The position numbers were made by a program, and so were the translations under genes. A stretch of 64,000 nt of DNA, taken from Rhizobium sp. (lineage in GTDB: Bacteria; Pseudomonadota; Gammaproteobacteria; Burkholderiales; Thiobacillaceae). Location of the stretch: positions 1-64,000 of the forward strand of contig JAIBEL010000067.1 of assembly GCA_019459285.1 (NCBI GenBank), written 5' to 3'. Under the pieces are notes generated by a model. The model was given only the letters and a program-made list of their open reading frames with translations, did not search any database and was not told the DNA's origin. Shown here piece by piece: positions 34,082 through 43,789 of the stretch (the first letter of the stretch is position 1; the number at the start of each line of letters is the position of its first letter).

Positions 34082-36640
<2,559 letters not shown>

Positions 36641-36724
36641 GTCAAGCTGTTAGAGTGAGTAAACGGAAATAGCGTCACAAAAAACCATTCTACGGGACAG
36701 AATTTCCGAAATTGGCAACGTCGT

Positions 36725-36755
36725 AAGGCCAACCGATCTGGTTGGCCTTTTCTTT
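36725..36755 (+). terminator. rho-independent terminator of gyrB
   Basis: A 10-bp perfect stem (AAGGCCAACC / GGTTGGCCTT) with a GATCT loop, followed by TTTCTTT, 85 bases after the gyrB stop. The rest of the 179-base gap up to the Crp/Fnr gene shows no other feature. Confidence 0.82.
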
Positions 36756-36819
36756 GGCGTAACGAAGAAGTAAAGAAAATCCAGACATGGGATTGGCCGA
36801 AGGCAATCCACCATCATTC

Positions 36820-37500
36820 CTAGTGGTCCGGGCCAGAAGCCGCAGCGTGCATTTCCGGACTCTCAATATAAATTCTGCGGTTTTCCAGGCTTAGAAAGCC
36901 TCTCCGCTTTAGCTTGCTGAGCATCCCCGTAACCGTTTGGCGTGTGGTGCCGACCATATCGGCAATTTCTTGGTGGGTAAGCGTGATGTCGAGGTGGATA
37001 TCCTGCCCAACGTGGACGCCATGGCGCGCACTCAAACGTAGGATCAACTTCATGATGCGGGTCTCAACGTCGTCATTGACCAGATTGACGATGACTTCAC
37101 TCAGGGTGCGCATACGGCACGACAGCACCTGCATGACGAGATGCAGAGAATCAGGGTGGTCGCGAAGAAACCCGGAAAACTGGCTCTGCGACAATTTAAG
37201 CACCTCTGAGGCCTCGCACACGTGCGCATGCACCACGCGCCCTCCTCCCTGCGCCACTTCTGCAAGACCAAACATTTCACCTGCAAAGCAGAACCACAGA
37301 ATGACTTCCTTGCCGGTATGCGACGGCTGGCAAATCTTGACTCGGCCTTTGCGAAGGAAATAGACGTGCTTGCCGGGCGCCCCTGCACGGAACACGAATT
37401 CGCCCTTGGAAAAACGCTGCATCGTGCCGAGGGAAATCAATGCTTCCCGGTCTTCCCCGCTCATGCGGGCGAGTATGTCGGTTTGCTGATCAAGTGGCAT
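36820..37500 (-). CDS. Crp/Fnr-family transcriptional regulator
   Basis: About 226 residues. The N-terminal cyclic-nucleotide-binding-like jelly roll (RFSKGEFVFRAGAPGKHVYF, WFCFAGEMFGLAEV) is followed by a long dimer helix and a C-terminal winged HTH (LTHQEIADMVGTTRQTVTGM, then LSKLKRRG). No N-terminal cysteine cluster of the oxygen-sensing Fnr type is seen. The start at 37500 has AGAGG six bases upstream; an ATG at 37506 touches it. It is divergent from the periplasmic PDC-like gene and is the obvious candidate regulator of the 37.7-43.3 kb genes. Its ligand is unknown. Confidence 0.9.
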   Translation of the reverse strand: MPLDQQTDILARMSGEDREALISLGTMQRFSKGEFVFRAGAPGKHVYFLRKGRVKICQPSHTGKEVILWFCFAGEMFGLAEVAQGGGRVVHAHVCEASEVLKLSQSQFSGFLRDHPDSLHLVMQVLSCRMRTLSEVIVNLVNDDVETRIMKLILRLSARHGVHVGQDIHLDITLTHQEIADMVGTTRQTVTGMLSKLKRRGFLSLENRRIYIESPEMHAAASGPDH

Positions 37501-37533
37501 GCGCATCCTCTGTTGGATTGCCGCGCCTTAAAC

Positions 37534-37682
37534 GACATTTTCTTTAATGCCGGAAATGTCAGTTGGCCGACATACTTTCCCCGAGATGGCCAGAATACTA
37601 CTTATGCCGCTTCGGGAGTGTAAAGGGGTTGGTATCCGAAGCCGGAGAACCACAAACAGGAATGGGACATTGTCTGTGTCCC
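37534..37682. promoter_or_regulatory. divergent promoter region rich in GACA/TGTC inverted repeats
   Basis: Within 150 bases lie GACATTT (37534-37540) opposite AAATGTC (37554-37560), ATGTC (37556-37560) opposite GACAT (37569-37573), the 9-base palindrome GACATTGTC (37666-37674), and GGGACA (37664-37669) opposite TGTCCC (37677-37682). The repeated half-site suggests operators for the adjacent Crp/Fnr-type regulator. It matches neither the CRP (TGTGA) nor the FNR (TTGAT) consensus. Confidence 0.5.
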
Positions 37683-37715
37683 TCATAACGGAGTCCTACC
37701 CTGATGGAGGTTACG

Positions 37716-38303
37716 ATGCCTTACCACTCTCGAGCCCGATGCTTCTCTTCTTCCCTTTTCCTCAACATTTGGGCGCTGTTGGCTGCAGTGATCGTCACGA
37801 CCCCTGTGTGGGCGGCTGACGTGACACCCAAGATGCAACCCAAGATCGATTCCTATAAAAAGCAGGCAGCCGTGTGGGCCATGGATCCTGTCATTGTAAA
37901 AGCCGTTAAGGAATCCAACGCCAAAGGCCCAATTCCCATGTTGGGCAATGCCAAGTGGCGCGAGTTGAAGGAAAGCGATCCCAACGTCAAAGGCCTGGTT
38001 GACAATCCGGCCGGGCAACGCCTGACCAAGTGGATGAATGCCGACACCAAGGGGATCAATAAAATCGTGCTGTCGGGCGACAAGAGCCATCGCGTCGCTT
38101 TTACGTCCATGCCGGCGATTTATATCGGTAAGGGCAAGCCAAACTTCGAGGAATCGTTCAGCGGAAAAGTGTGGCAACAGGGTGAATCCAAACCCGATCC
38201 CAGTACCAATATCGAATCAGTGCAGATTTCCGTACCGGTGAAAAGCGGCAATGATGTGATCGGCGTGCTGTTGGTGTCGCTGACCGCAGCCAGTCTGCAA
38301 TAG
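37716..38303 (+). CDS. periplasmic PDC/Cache-like sensor-domain protein
   Basis: 195 residues. A signal peptide (hydrophobic stretch to VTTPVWA, cleaved before ADVTPK) is followed by one globular domain. The C-terminal pattern (KVWQQGESKPDPSTNIESVQ, then ISVPVKSGNDVIGVLLV) resembles the PDC/Cache ligand-binding fold usually found in sensor kinases and chemoreceptors, here without any transmitter domain. The start at 37716 has GGAGG five bases upstream. It is 8 bases ahead of the DASS transporter, so a role in capturing or sensing the transporter's substrate is likely but unproven. Confidence 0.75.
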   Translation: MPYHSRARCFSSSLFLNIWALLAAVIVTTPVWAADVTPKMQPKIDSYKKQAAVWAMDPVIVKAVKESNAKGPIPMLGNAKWRELKESDPNVKGLVDNPAGQRLTKWMNADTKGINKIVLSGDKSHRVAFTSMPAIYIGKGKPNFEESFSGKVWQQGESKPDPSTNIESVQISVPVKSGNDVIGVLLVSLTAASLQ

Positions 38304-38311
38304 GGGGCCTT

Positions 38312-39820
38312 ATGAGCGAACAAGTGCAGAGCGGCGGCTTTATCGCCAACTGGGGCAGCAATATTCGTGATTCCGGACGATCGCCCGGCAAGTGTGCGTG
38401 CGGGTTCATCGCAGCCTGGATCGCATTTTTCCTGATCCTGTGGGTGATACCCGTTCCAGAGGGACTTTCCACCGCGGGCAAGGCAACGCTGGCGGTCATG
38501 GTATGGGCATGTCTCATGTGGATTACCGAAGCGATTCCGGTCGGCGTATCCGGAATGTTGATCCCTATGCTGCTGGTGATGACGGGTGCGATCGACAAGT
38601 TTCCCAAGGCGGCCAGTGGTTTTTCGACGCCGGTGGTGTTTCTGTGTCTGGCGGCATTCATTTTTGCTGCTGTGATGCAGGCAGCCGGTCTGGATCGACG
38701 CATCGCACTGGGGATGCTGCACAAGCTCAAGGTACGAACGGTCAATGGCGTGATCTGGGCGATGTTCGGCGCCAACTTGCTGTTGTCGTTGATCATTCCT
38801 GCAGCCAACGCACGTGCCGCGACGTTGTTGCCAGTGGTGAACGGCATTACCAATATGTTCGGCGATACACCTGAAGAACGTGCCGGCAAGAAGGCTATCG
38901 TCATCCAGACGCTGGTCTATGGTTCGATGATCAGCGGCATGTGCATCATGACTGCGCATCTGCCAAATCTGGTGATCGTCGGCTTGCTCGAAACCGAGCT
39001 TGCGCTACACCTGTCCTATATCGACTGGTTCAAGCTGCAATGGCCCTATCTCGGCATGTTTGTCATTACCCAGTGGTGGATGCAGCGCTACTTCAAGACG
39101 CATGGCGTGGGTGTGCACGGAGGTTATGGGGCAGTGCAAAAGCAATACGCGGAACAGCCGAAGACCAGTCAGGCGGAATGGCTCATTCTCGTGGTATTCG
39201 GCGTGATAGCGTTGCTGTGGGTGACGGAATCCTGGCACGGCATCAAATCGCATAATGCGGCGCTGATGGGGTTGGCGGTTCTGTTCATGCCCGGCATGTT
39301 TGGCTTCAAGTGGAAAGAGCTGCAGGATCGCACGATCTGGGGCACCTTCCTGTTACTCGCGGGCGCGCTTTCGATGTCGTCCGCAATGGGCAGTACCGGG
39401 CTTGCACAGTGGTTGTCGGACATTATTCATCCGCTGGCGATGGGCCACCCGTGGTGGATGGTGCTGCTGATCCTGATGGCGGGCACGCATGTGATCCGGC
39501 TCGGCATGCTGTCGAATGTGGCGGCAATCACCATGCTGGCGCCGATTCTACTGGCGCTTGCACCCAAGCTTGGGTTGCACCCGGTGGCGTTCACCATGCT
39601 TGTATCCGACACCGATACCTTCGCCTACATCCTGCCAACGCAAATCACGGCGGCGGTCATCGCCTACAGCAGCGGCACCTTCAGCATGGCCGACTACGCG
39701 AAAGTAGGCTGGGTTTCGGTGCTGATCGCGATCGCCTACGGCATCTGTGTCATGGCGCCATGGTATGCCTTCATGGGCATCCCCGTCTGGGATCCCGCAG
39801 CACCTTGGCCTTTCCAATAA
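38312..39820 (+). CDS. DASS (SLC13)-family anion:sodium symporter-like protein
   Basis: 502 residues with about 11-12 hydrophobic segments and the family hallmark WITEAIPVGVSGMLIP (about 70-86). Members import dicarboxylates, tricarboxylates, sulfate or sulfonates. The two usual Ser-Asn-Thr ion and substrate motifs are altered: the first position reads ANAR (165-168) and the second LSNV (400-403), so substrate or cation coupling may differ. It lies between the periplasmic PDC-like gene and the PHP-like hydrolase gene, on the same strand, pointing to uptake of the compound those genes handle. Confidence 0.85.
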   Translation: MSEQVQSGGFIANWGSNIRDSGRSPGKCACGFIAAWIAFFLILWVIPVPEGLSTAGKATLAVMVWACLMWITEAIPVGVSGMLIPMLLVMTGAIDKFPKAASGFSTPVVFLCLAAFIFAAVMQAAGLDRRIALGMLHKLKVRTVNGVIWAMFGANLLLSLIIPAANARAATLLPVVNGITNMFGDTPEERAGKKAIVIQTLVYGSMISGMCIMTAHLPNLVIVGLLETELALHLSYIDWFKLQWPYLGMFVITQWWMQRYFKTHGVGVHGGYGAVQKQYAEQPKTSQAEWLILVVFGVIALLWVTESWHGIKSHNAALMGLAVLFMPGMFGFKWKELQDRTIWGTFLLLAGALSMSSAMGSTGLAQWLSDIIHPLAMGHPWWMVLLILMAGTHVIRLGMLSNVAAITMLAPILLALAPKLGLHPVAFTMLVSDTDTFAYILPTQITAAVIAYSSGTFSMADYAKVGWVSVLIAIAYGICVMAPWYAFMGIPVWDPAAPWPFQ

Positions 39821-39841
39821 ATCTGCTCTGATCGATACATC

Positions 39842-39865
39842 CCCAACCGACTTCCGTTCGGCTGG
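39842..39865 (+). other. intercistronic hairpin
   Basis: A 9-bp stem with one mismatch (CCCAACCGA / TCGGCTGGG) in the 84-base gap between the transporter and the PHP-like gene. No T-run follows, so it is more likely an mRNA stability element or partial attenuator than a terminator. Confidence 0.4.
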
Positions 39866-39904
39866 GAATGTGCCTGGCCGTACCAGTAAAACGAGGAAGA
39901 CAAC

Positions 39905-42292
39905 ATGAAGAAAATGACCGATGCCGAACTGAAAGAAAAACTTGGCGACTACATCGCACCGCAAGGCCTGTATCAGATCACCAAGGACATGCCCTTTCTG
40001 GGAAAGGTCTCGTGCAACATCGAGCGCATGGAAGCGGGGTCCTGGCAGGAAATCGTCATCGACTACGAACTCGGCGCCTCGGGCATGGCCGACGGGTCCT
40101 GGTTCAAGGCGACATTCCGGTTCTATTCCGACTGGGCCCTGTTCCAGAACACCGATCCGGGCGGTGCCAATTACATCTCCGCCGAATATCACGCCGCGCC
40201 GACCATTCCCGGCCAGTCACCGGCGACCGTGCAGAAGCTCAGCGTGCGCTTCGATCAGAAGGGCCATGAACGGCCATTCCAGAAAGCGGTAATCGTCGAT
40301 ACCTACGACGGTTACCTCAAGGCTGGCGACCACATCATCATCCGCCTGGGCGACCGGCGTTTTGGCGGCGCCGGTACGCGCGTGCAGACTTTCGTCGAGG
40401 AGAGTTTCCGCATCCGCTGCTATGTCGACCCCCTCGGCACCTCGCGCTTCGCCTCTATCGGCGAAGACCTGGTGATCGATATCAAACCCGGCGCGCCGGC
40501 GCAGCTGATGTGGGCCGGCTCGCGCATCGTGCGCGCGAATGAAAAATTTCCGCTGCGGCTGCGCAGCGAGGATCAATGGGGGAATACCTGCTGGAATCGC
40601 GGCGACAAGGTGCAGATCAACGCGACGCTGAACGGTAGGCCGGTGTACAGCAAAGAGGCGACACTGGCGGAAAAAGGCTGGGCAGTGTTGTTGCTGGAAG
40701 ATTTGCCGGCGCAGGAAGCCGGCGAATTGGCGGTCACTGCCCATCTACCAGAACACCCATGGGTCAAGCCGGCGGTCTTTTACGTCACAGTGGACAAGGC
40801 GTTGGCGGTGCCGCGTATTTACTACTGCGATCTGCATGTGCATTCCGAAGACACGATCGGCACCAATACCACGAGCTACAACCTCACCTATGGTCGCGAT
40901 GTAAGCGGTCTGGATATCCTGGCCTTTGCGCATAACGACTTCAATATCACCACGGAGAAATGGAAGAGTACGGTCGAATTGATTCATTCGATCACCACGG
41001 ACGGCAGCTTTGTGGCCTATCCGGGCACCGAGTGGTGCGGATCGAGCTGCGCAGGCGGCGATCACAACGTGGTGTTTCTGCACGACGGGGAACCGGAATT
41101 CCCCTACCTCAAGACCGGCGAGCATGTGCGATCGGTGGAATGGAACGAAGACATGCGCTCGGCCACCGTCGAGCCGGGTGCCTGGCCGCTGGAAGAGTTA
41201 TGGGTGGCCTATGCGAAAGATCCGGATGGCCACCTGCTGATTCCGCACGTGGGTGGTCGACGCTGCATTCTCGACTGGCACCATCCCCAGCTGGAGCGGC
41301 TGATCGAGATCGGCTCCAGCTGGGGCCATTTCGGCTGGCTGTATCAGGAGGCGATGACTCGCGGTTACAAGATCGGTGCGTCCATGGCCGGCGACGAACA
41401 TCGCGGTCGCTGCGGCGGCGGCGTGCCCGGCACCGCGGTGTTTGGCACCAAGGGCGGCATCTCCGGCGTAATCGCGCCGGAGCTTTCCCGAAAGGCCGTG
41501 GCAGAGGCCTTGCGTGCGCGCCACACCTTTGCGTCCACCGGCGAGCGTAGCTATGGCTTGATTCGCTGCAATGAGCACATCATGGGCGATGAGTTCGCGC
41601 ACAAGGGGCCGGCGACGATTGATTATCGTTTCCTCGGCGATGCGGGGTGGGACGAAATCATTGCGTTCGATCACACCGGCGAGATCTGGCGTCGCGATCT
41701 ACAACAGGAACTCGGCTACTCCGAGCGCAAGATCCGCTTCCGCTGGGGCGGCGCGCGGGTCAAGGATCGTTACCGCTGGGCTGCCTGGAAGGGCAAGGTC
41801 ACCATCACCAATGCGGTGATCAACGATTTCACCGGCCGCGGATTCGAACACCTCGAAGAAACCTGCTGGCGCGAATCCGCCACCACAGTGGGTTTCAGGA
41901 GCGATACCTATGGCGACGTGGATGCCATCGAGCTCGACGTGTCGCACCTGGCCACGGCGAAGATTCGCGTCGAAGGCACGATAGACGGCTATGTGAAAGT
42001 CGGCGATCCGCTCAAGGGCAATCCTTTCGTGCACTGCCCGACATTCGAGTGGGAAATCACCGGGGCGGAATTGCTTGAAGCGGCGCGGCTCAAGAAGGAT
42101 CTACCCGGGGTGGAGATGTTTCTCGCCTTCGAGCGCATGAGCGATTCACCCGCACCGCGGGAAGTCAGCGGCACGCTCAACATCGACCCACATAATGGCC
42201 CGCACGGCCACCGTCCGGTTTACTTTTTTGGGAGGCAGATCGATGATGCGAAGGTATGGACATCAGCGTTGTTCATCGCCTTTGATGGATGA
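39905..42292 (+). CDS. PHP-superfamily (DUF3604-like) putative metallohydrolase
   Basis: 795 residues, no signal peptide, so cytoplasmic unless exported unusually. Residues 1-300 are beta-rich, of unknown family. The central PHP-like part (about 305-545) has CDLHVHS (D309, H311, H313), AHNDFN (H343, D345), GTEWCG (E376), GGDHN (H387), IPHVGG (H448) and GDEHR (D497, H499). These are metal-ligand-type residues spaced as in PHP phosphoesterases and DUF3604. The last 240 residues are again beta-rich. GAGGAAG lies 5 bases before the ATG. Substrate unknown; a hydrolase for the imported anion is the working inference. Confidence 0.8.
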   Translation: MKKMTDAELKEKLGDYIAPQGLYQITKDMPFLGKVSCNIERMEAGSWQEIVIDYELGASGMADGSWFKATFRFYSDWALFQNTDPGGANYISAEYHAAPTIPGQSPATVQKLSVRFDQKGHERPFQKAVIVDTYDGYLKAGDHIIIRLGDRRFGGAGTRVQTFVEESFRIRCYVDPLGTSRFASIGEDLVIDIKPGAPAQLMWAGSRIVRANEKFPLRLRSEDQWGNTCWNRGDKVQINATLNGRPVYSKEATLAEKGWAVLLLEDLPAQEAGELAVTAHLPEHPWVKPAVFYVTVDKALAVPRIYYCDLHVHSEDTIGTNTTSYNLTYGRDVSGLDILAFAHNDFNITTEKWKSTVELIHSITTDGSFVAYPGTEWCGSSCAGGDHNVVFLHDGEPEFPYLKTGEHVRSVEWNEDMRSATVEPGAWPLEELWVAYAKDPDGHLLIPHVGGRRCILDWHHPQLERLIEIGSSWGHFGWLYQEAMTRGYKIGASMAGDEHRGRCGGGVPGTAVFGTKGGISGVIAPELSRKAVAEALRARHTFASTGERSYGLIRCNEHIMGDEFAHKGPATIDYRFLGDAGWDEIIAFDHTGEIWRRDLQQELGYSERKIRFRWGGARVKDRYRWAAWKGKVTITNAVINDFTGRGFEHLEETCWRESATTVGFRSDTYGDVDAIELDVSHLATAKIRVEGTIDGYVKVGDPLKGNPFVHCPTFEWEITGAELLEAARLKKDLPGVEMFLAFERMSDSPAPREVSGTLNIDPHNGPHGHRPVYFFGRQIDDAKVWTSALFIAFDG

Positions 42293-42389
42293 ACGGTTTC
42301 TCTCACACGGGGCGCAACGGGTTGCCAAGGGAATATCCACCCCCTTCCTTCCCGATGCCCTTGCATCCCTGGCGGATAACAGTTCTGAC

Positions 42390-43292
42390 ATGCCCATGAA
42401 TCCATTGCGCTGGCCGGACGAAACCGCCCGGCCAAGGAACCATGAGGAGCCGGGCTTTTCGCAGCCCGGCTCGAATATCTGCCTGGATTTTCACGGCGAT
42501 CCGATGCGCGCGCGCTTGGTGGTTTTTTCCGACGGCAATCATCATATGGCGCTGCAGGAAACATTGCGTGCCTTTCTGTTGAAATTCCCGGAGGTGGAGG
42601 ATGTCTTCTATGTCACCACCCCACCGCGCGTGGCGCTGCAAATGCTTCAGGCAGGGTGTCTGAATATCGGCAATCTCAGATTGTCGGTAACGCCGCATGT
42701 CTTCATCAGCCCATCGGCTGTGCTCGACCAACTGATAGCGGAGAAGCGCATGCCCGCTTATCGGCCCTTCATGCATAGCCGCGGTGTGGTGCTACTCGTA
42801 CGCAAGGGTAACCCGAAGAACATCAGCGGTCTCCGGGATTTGCTACGAGAGGATGTGAGGGTGTTTTTATCCAATCCCGTCAACGAAAAAGTCAGCTACC
42901 AGATATACACGGATTGCCTGCGGCGACTGGCCCTGCATGAGAAAATTTCGCTGGATTTTCTCGCCAATCCACCGGCTTATCCGGGCTCGCCCAACTTGAT
43001 TTACGGCGATACCATTCATCATCGCGAAGCGCCGCAGGCATTGATGGACGGACACGCAGACGTGGCAGTGGTGTTCTATCATCTGGCGCTGCGTTATCAG
43101 CGTATCTTTCCTGAACTGTTTGATTCAGTTTGGCCAGCCGGTTCCCGGGGTAACCAGCATTGCGATATCAACCGCTTTGGTTTCGGCTTGGTGGATGGTG
43201 GCGGGTCGTGGGGCAGCAAGCTGGATACGTTCCTGATGACCGATGAAGTGACGTCTATCTATGCTGCGCATGGCTTGGAACGCGCCGTGTGA
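42390..43292 (+). CDS. ModA-like periplasmic-binding-fold protein lacking a signal peptide
   Basis: About 300 residues from the chosen ATG. The sequence has the substrate-binding-protein pattern: LVVFSDGNHHMALQETLRAF, FISPSAVLDQLI, VVLLVRKGNPKNISGLRDLL, and FLSNPVNEKVSYQIY. It resembles molybdate/tungstate-type binding proteins but has no secretion signal or lipobox. It may be a cytosolic ligand-sensing or salvage protein. The start is uncertain: 42390 is used, 42505 (MRARLVVF) is possible, and no good ribosome binding site is visible. A strong hairpin lies between these two starts. It follows the PHP-like gene on the same strand. Confidence 0.6.
   Translation: MPMNPLRWPDETARPRNHEEPGFSQPGSNICLDFHGDPMRARLVVFSDGNHHMALQETLRAFLLKFPEVEDVFYVTTPPRVALQMLQAGCLNIGNLRLSVTPHVFISPSAVLDQLIAEKRMPAYRPFMHSRGVVLLVRKGNPKNISGLRDLLREDVRVFLSNPVNEKVSYQIYTDCLRRLALHEKISLDFLANPPAYPGSPNLIYGDTIHHREAPQALMDGHADVAVVFYHLALRYQRIFPELFDSVWPAGSRGNQHCDINRFGFGLVDGGGSWGSKLDTFLMTDEVTSIYAAHGLERAV
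42447..42472 (+). other. perfect 10-bp hairpin near the start of the binding-fold gene
   Basis: GAGCCGGGCT / AGCCCGGCTC with a 6-base loop. It covers a GAGGAG that could act as ribosome binding site for a downstream start. It is not followed by T residues. It could mask translation initiation or mark that the true start is at 42505. Confidence 0.5.
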
Positions 43293-43394
43293 AACCCGTT
43301 GCGACTATACCGCTGCCAAAAATTCCCTGGACGATCATGTGCATTGCGCCAGTGGCGCGAAACATAAGACAGATGCGGCGCGTTTAAGCGCGTT

Positions 43395-43789
43395 TCAAAT
43401 CGATGCAGGCGTATTTTCCAGCCAGCCCTGCAATGTCGCACGCAACCGGTCTTCCTGCACCGGCAGCGTCAGGGCGGCGTCGATGCGCAGTCGTGCGCTG
43501 ACCTTGTCGAGCACGGCCTGATGAGCCGTTTCGTAAAAGACCAGGATGCGCGTATCGGGCGCGCTTTGCACCGCGGCCAGCAGGGATTCGAGGTTGGACA
43601 GCCGGTCGCGGAAATCCGTCTGGTGGTAAAAGTCCGCCACGATGACGGCAGGCGGGGTTTTGCGTATCAGGCTGATGGCCTTGCGTTCCGACCATTCGTT
43701 GACGACGCTGAAACCCAGTTCCTGATAGAGCTTCTTGTTGCTTGCCGTGCCGATGAAGGCATTGAGCATGAGCAGCCGGGGCGGTGCGC

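Follow-up and report, generated by a model that had tools for sequence, protein, structure and literature searches.

Gene content of the gyrB–topA interval

The DNA analyzed here is a 64,000-nucleotide stretch of contig JAIBEL010000067.1 (assembly GCA_019459285.1; hereafter the window) from a Thiobacillus-like genome. Between gyrB and topA it carries a unit of five genes (Table 1), a minus-strand Crp/Fnr-type regulator gene (P1) and the plus-strand genes P2 to P5, which the initial annotation had read as a pathway for an anionic compound. The positions and strands of the five open reading frames (ORFs) all hold, and the gene calls stand save for corrections to the starts of P2 and P5. Gaps between genes are 8 bases (P2–P3), 84 bases (P3–P4) and, with the corrected start, approximately 100 bases (P4–P5). 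The P4 protein shares 99% identity with one from Thiobacillus thioparus DSM 505. The terminator-like hairpin 3' of gyrB is a weak sign of a boundary, because a consensus scan found 11 such sites in the window where 6.5 were expected.

Table 1. Positions in the window of the genes and other features of the unit
Feature	Position	Strand	Basis
Terminator-like hairpin, 3' of gyrB, candidate unit boundary	36725..36749	+	Consensus scan
P1, Crp/Fnr-type regulator (cNMP_binding and HTH_Crp_2), divergent from operon	36820..37506	-	Pfam
Palindromic operator candidate, TGTCAGTTGGCCGACA	37557..37572		Motif comparison across relatives
P2, predicted exported Cache-like protein	37716..38303	+	Ribosome-binding site, alignment of relatives
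P3, DASS-family anion transporter	38312..39820	+	TIGR00785, PDB match
P4, putative PHP-fold metallohydrolase, DUF3604 fringe, no visible signal peptide	39905..42292	+	Pfam, structure model, conservation
P5, soluble ModA/sulfate-binding-protein fold, no visible export signal	42390..43292	+	Homology, structure comparison

Both Crp/Fnr domains were detected in P1 (PF00027, 66.9 bits; PF13545, 59.4 bits) which, with its strand, confirms a Crp/Fnr-type regulator divergent from P2; an ATG at 37500 is a possible alternative start. For P2 the ATG at 37716, with GGAGG directly ahead of it, is likelier than the listed ORF start at 37704, and a signal peptide is visible by eye when the protein is read from this position. 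P2 of the window matched no Pfam or NCBIfam family and had no match in the PDB, whilst dCache_1 was matched by 6 of 17 aligned relatives (best E value 3.2e-5). Of its earlier description as a signal-peptide PDC/Cache-like protein, the signal peptide stands and the Cache likeness is weakly supported through the relatives. P3 scored 220.5 bits against TIGR00785 (cut-off 198.6), as expected of the DASS-type transporter proposed at this position. P5 had been taken to start at 42195, inside P4, and this was not borne out: homology begins at approximately residue 66–71 of the listed ORF in most full-length matches to relatives, so the start is placed at 42390 or 42396. From there no signal peptide is seen by eye, and P5 matched SBP_bac_11 with 53.3 bits (cut-off 25) and has a periplasmic-binding-protein fold, in agreement with its description as a binding-fold protein lacking an export signal. 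Six histidines are invariant in P5, and the unit in the window contains no ATP-binding cassette (ABC) permease.

P4 as a putative PHP-fold metallohydrolase

P4 barely passed the Pfam DUF3604 threshold (24.6 bits, gathering 20.4) with a short best stretch at residues 515–548, and DUF3604 was also matched by all 14 members of an alignment of relatives, A2 (E values up to 0.01). The score against the NCBIfam CehA/McbA metallohydrolase model, 30.1 bits, was below its 80-bit cut-off, and neither P4 nor A2 had a sequence match in the PDB. Metal motifs of the PHP superfamily are HxH, E, H and DxH. Candidate metal-site residues of P4 are D309, H311, H313, E376, D386/H387, H448, D497 and H499, and of these D309, H311, E376, D386, H448, D497 and H499 are invariant in all 99 aligned P4 rows, with H313 present in 96 and H387 in 92. 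A second structural aligner matched the P4 model to 3e38, labelled a PHP-like metal-dependent phosphoesterase. P4 thus combines a PHP fold with the motif residues of the superfamily, and together with the marginal DUF3604 match these support the earlier assignment as a putative PHP/DUF3604-like metallohydrolase. At one locus (L078:6992-9245) P4 is broken over two reading frames, from mutation or assembly error.

Conserved neighbourhood of P4 relatives

A scan with one genome per species gave 76 loci with a P4 relative, many cut by contig ends, whose neighbours were identified without profiles, by comparing them against the window proteins and against further neighbours met on the way. An importer was encoded within 5 kb of P4 in 73 of these loci and a Crp-type regulator in 53; P5 was near P4 or crp in 41, in several arrangements, and P2 was present in 19. 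Homologues of the five genes therefore do occur together elsewhere. Where at least 5 kb of upstream sequence was available, an importer was present in 52/52 loci and the regulator in 45/52. The three loci without an importer comprise L047, with a TauE/SafE gene downstream of P4, and two ended by the contig. The nearest upstream importer gene shared the strand of P4 in 69 of 72 loci. As a control, upstream and downstream stretches of equal length were compared at the 34 loci whose flanks reach at least 4.7 kb to either side of P4: an importer (>100 bits) was found upstream in 33/34 and downstream in 0/34. Linkage of P5, previously based on strand and proximity, is real (20 of 34 loci with long flanks on each side) although not seen at every locus.

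Eight of the P4 loci bear a genus name, of which seven are Thiobacillus, Sulfuritalea or Thiohalocapsa, all sulfur oxidizers, and one is Rhodomicrobium; the remainder have higher-rank names, many being metagenome assemblies of Beta- or Gammaproteobacteria. Four Thiobacillus genomes negative for P4 were inspected at gyrB and topA. In three (L162, L163 and L165) the two genes are approximately 3.2 to 4.7 kb apart with other genes, none matching P1–P5, between them, and in the fourth topA was outside the examined stretch. The unit therefore occupies a variable slot, at 36640-43400 in the window.

P4 relatives were also present in 58 plasmid records, among them records from Rhizobium, Klebsiella, Pantoea and Azospirillum with approximately 51% identity. 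Gene order on the Klebsiella, Pantoea and Rhizobium plasmids is GntR regulator, ABC ATPase, binding protein, permease and P4; an Azospirillum record (L115) has GntR and P4 without such an ABC importer. The same GntR–ABC order was found in genomes G460 and G540, and a GntR–DASS order in G728. In Klebsiella pneumoniae and Pantoea (L112, L114) the plasmids bearing the GntR–ABC–P4 unit are large, and the annotation reads hypothetical protein. In Methylosinus trichosporium (L111:3625-7650) a SoxC-type sulfite dehydrogenase, a cytochrome c and a phosphonate-type binding protein are encoded beside P4 on the opposite strand. More distant DUF3604 relatives (26–28%) lie beside TctABC or ABC importers in Sulfitobacter, Pseudosulfitobacter and Agrobacterium. 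Heterotrophic carriers of P4 relatives are soil, plant and clinical isolates.

Exchange of importers beside P4

Importers near P4 in the 76 loci were of the DASS kind found in the window (34), a second DASS kind (8), TctABC (25) or NitT/TauT-like ABC systems (6), and P2 was found solely with the first of these (19 of 34 loci). Importer types were mapped on a quickly computed maximum-likelihood tree with 99 P4 rows, in which 25 of 90 inner branches were left open and from which loci with P4 shorter than 600 residues in one frame were omitted. Over 95 labelled rows, with Azospirillum L115 excluded from the count as it has a zinc ABC system nearby, importer type changed at least 17 times, or 14 times when both DASS kinds were merged; 11 changes fell within the 84 Crp-type rows. 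Since unrelated importers are swapped beside an unchanging enzyme, a constant substrate is the best explanation. In five loci (L009, L010, L015, L023 and L062) a gene of the ChrA chromate transporter family lies between the DASS gene and P4.

A candidate operator

A palindrome of the form TGTCG-N6-CGACA, with one arm mismatch tolerated, was present between crp and the operon in 38 of 48 non-redundant regions, compared with at most 6 regions in any of 100 single-base shuffles. A site fitting at least 8 of 10 positions was found in 50 of 54 crp–operon regions, part of these sites being weak. The palindrome next to P1 is therefore a candidate operator-like site. It accompanies every importer kind, which ties the regulator to the enzyme rather than to any one carrier. 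Across the genome containing the window the pattern occurred at 12 places, compared with 5 for a reversed control, and 8 of the 12 were inside mechanically predicted ORFs; on these counts a wider P1 regulon is not proposed. Judged from sequence comparison, P1–P5 represent a real, apparently self-regulated gene unit common to many sulfur-oxidizing bacteria.

Association with sulfur oxidation

Among 369 genomes of the class, P4 was matched in 25 and strongly in 18, the 7 with a weak or partial match being counted with the 351 others. SoxB was above cut-off in 16/18 strong-P4 genomes and 131/351 others (Fisher 1.6e-5), and DsrA in 15/18 and 103/351 (Fisher 6.2e-6), both uncorrected for kinship. 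Among 36 genomes of the same genus, 3 had P4, one of them being that of the window; it was not found in any of 24 others from the order, and across the phylum 5 of 398 genomes had a match (E values up to 1e-20). Methylosinus, R. etli, A. vitis, L047 and two further loci of Rhizobium type have genes for sulfite or organosulfur metabolism in the vicinity of P4.

Proposed pathway and alternatives

Gene order, conservation, the operator-like site, folds and distribution were established. From these, the unit is probably a dedicated uptake-and-hydrolysis operon for an anion, with a small sulfur-containing substrate the likeliest. P1 would bind the conserved palindrome between its own gene and the operon, turning the operon on or off. 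P3 would import a small, probably multiply charged anion, as suggested by its family and by its replacement with TctABC or ABC importers in relatives. Fold and conservation suggest that P4 may then cleave the anion in the cytoplasm at a metal site with invariant arginines around it, whilst P5, from its fold, may act there as a sensor or carrier that binds either the anion or an oxyanion product. In the DASS version P2 could sense or hold ligand in the periplasm. The substrate might be, for example, an organosulfonate or an inorganic sulfur oxoanion, with the product feeding cytoplasmic sulfur oxidation. Uptake and hydrolysis are supported by conservation, the exchangeable importers, the operator-like site and the folds, and the anionic nature of the compound, as first proposed, is strengthened by four interchangeable anion importers and the oxyanion-binding-protein fold of P5.

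Several observations weigh against this interpretation. The regulator was absent from 7 of the 52 loci having 5 kb or more upstream, and P5 from 14 of the 34 with long flanks. The P4 model is middling (predicted local distance difference test, pLDDT, 71.9), its active-site loops are poor, and its top 50 Foldseek matches contained beta-sandwich proteins at low template-modelling (TM) score and no PHP protein. Thirteen hand-picked P4-negative genomes of the same families have SoxB above cut-off in 13/13 and DsrA in 11/13 cases; the sulfur link is thus lost within families, and P4 is an accessory marking sulfur-oxidizing lineages and not a core step. DsrA was not above cut-off in the GntR-type genomes G460, G540 and G728, and the regions examined from Klebsiella, Pantoea, Sulfitobacter and Pseudosulfitobacter showed no sulfur gene nearby. 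The genome of the window (G000) itself gave no SoxB match, possibly owing to masked sequence; DsrA is matched there twice, at near 498 bits, and SoxB is present in two same-genus genomes and in T. thioparus DSM 505. A common sulfonate route via sulfoacetaldehyde was rejected, sulfoacetaldehyde acetyltransferase (xsc) being above cut-off in just 3 of 22 P4 genomes.

A small sulfur-containing anion remains the first choice as most likely substrate, with organic and phosphorus anions as its main rivals. A sulfur-free organic anion (an ester, carbamate or carboxylate), used or detoxified as by the pesticide hydrolases CehA/McbA, is unlikely. Carboxylates are common cargo of DASS and TctABC carriers, and the heterotrophic carriers and the weak CehA/McbA similarity would fit such a substrate, but that similarity falls short of the model cut-off, Thiobacillus is known for autotrophy and the enrichment of sulfur-oxidation genes would stay unexplained. 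Somewhat less likely still is phosphorus scavenging, in which P4 would hydrolyse phosphoesters or phosphonate esters and an organophosphate anion would be the cargo of the importers. The label of 3e38 and a phosphonate-type binding protein (PF12974) approximately 4.5 kb from P4 in Methylosinus point this way, yet the importers are neither phosphate nor Phn transporters, nine annotated regions contained no phosphatase or phosphonate lyase annotation, and SoxB and DsrA enrichment would not be predicted.

Hydrolysis or processing of imported thiocyanate or cyanate by P4 appears very improbable. The unit is carried by T. thioparus and by thiocyanate-named reactor genomes (L007, L012), and some versions have NitT/TauT-like ABC importers; we know of no link between thiocyanate and the DASS or TctABC carriers of other versions. 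T. thioparus DSM 505 already has the thiocyanate hydrolase genes scnABC (PMC5328954), which stand in another gene row together with NitT/TauT-family ABC genes of their own, and thiocyanate was set low as a candidate substrate for this reason. An outward carrier, releasing for example sulfate or sulfite as a product whilst P4 acts on an internal metabolite, is slightly more improbable still. The systems found in place of the DASS carrier include TctABC, with its binding protein, and ABC systems that depend on binding proteins, all of these being importers, although L047 has a TauE/SafE gene and no importer after P4.

Returning to import and hydrolysis of a sulfur anion, it is possible, and we suggest it tentatively, that sulfur-oxidizing lithotrophs possess an unrecognized accessory pathway of this kind, for an anion outside their current set of electron donors, with one regulator, one enzyme and swappable importers, shared horizontally on plasmids with plant- and animal-associated bacteria. 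A sulfur-containing substrate would provide Thiobacillus-like bacteria with an added electron or sulfur source and would explain the plasmid spread of a close homologue in Rhizobium, Klebsiella, Pantoea and Azospirillum. The DUF3604-fringe family gains a testable role as a cytoplasmic hydrolase coupled to anion import, and since four unrelated importers serve one enzyme, substrate screens narrow to anions that all could carry. Literature searches, with most subscription papers outside their coverage, found no description of the P1–P5 unit and nothing combining DUF3604 with sulfur-oxidizing; DUF3604 reportedly comes up in a study of Chlamydia transposon mutants.

Comparison with known systems

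P4 has a PHP fold match and PHP-type residues in common with DUF3604, CehA/McbA and PHP metallohydrolases, and differs from them in its marginal score, in failing the CehA/McbA cut-off and in its tight link to anion importers. The best PDB match of P3 is the VcINDY family of DASS/SLC13 carriers (E value 2e-29); it differs in that its place is filled by unrelated importers in other genomes. The tripartite tricarboxylate transporter (TTT) version resembles known TctABC systems, with TctA and TctB above Pfam cut-off plus a TctC-type binding protein, but is here partnered with P4, a Crp regulator and P5. Binding proteins of the ABC version resemble the nitrate-, sulfonate- and taurine-type chains of NitT/TauT importers, a likeness too weak to indicate a ligand. 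The closest known systems to P5 are ModA, sulfate-binding protein, AcfC and PEB3, from which it is set apart by its six invariant histidines, the lack of a visible export signal and arrangements mostly without a neighbouring ABC permease.
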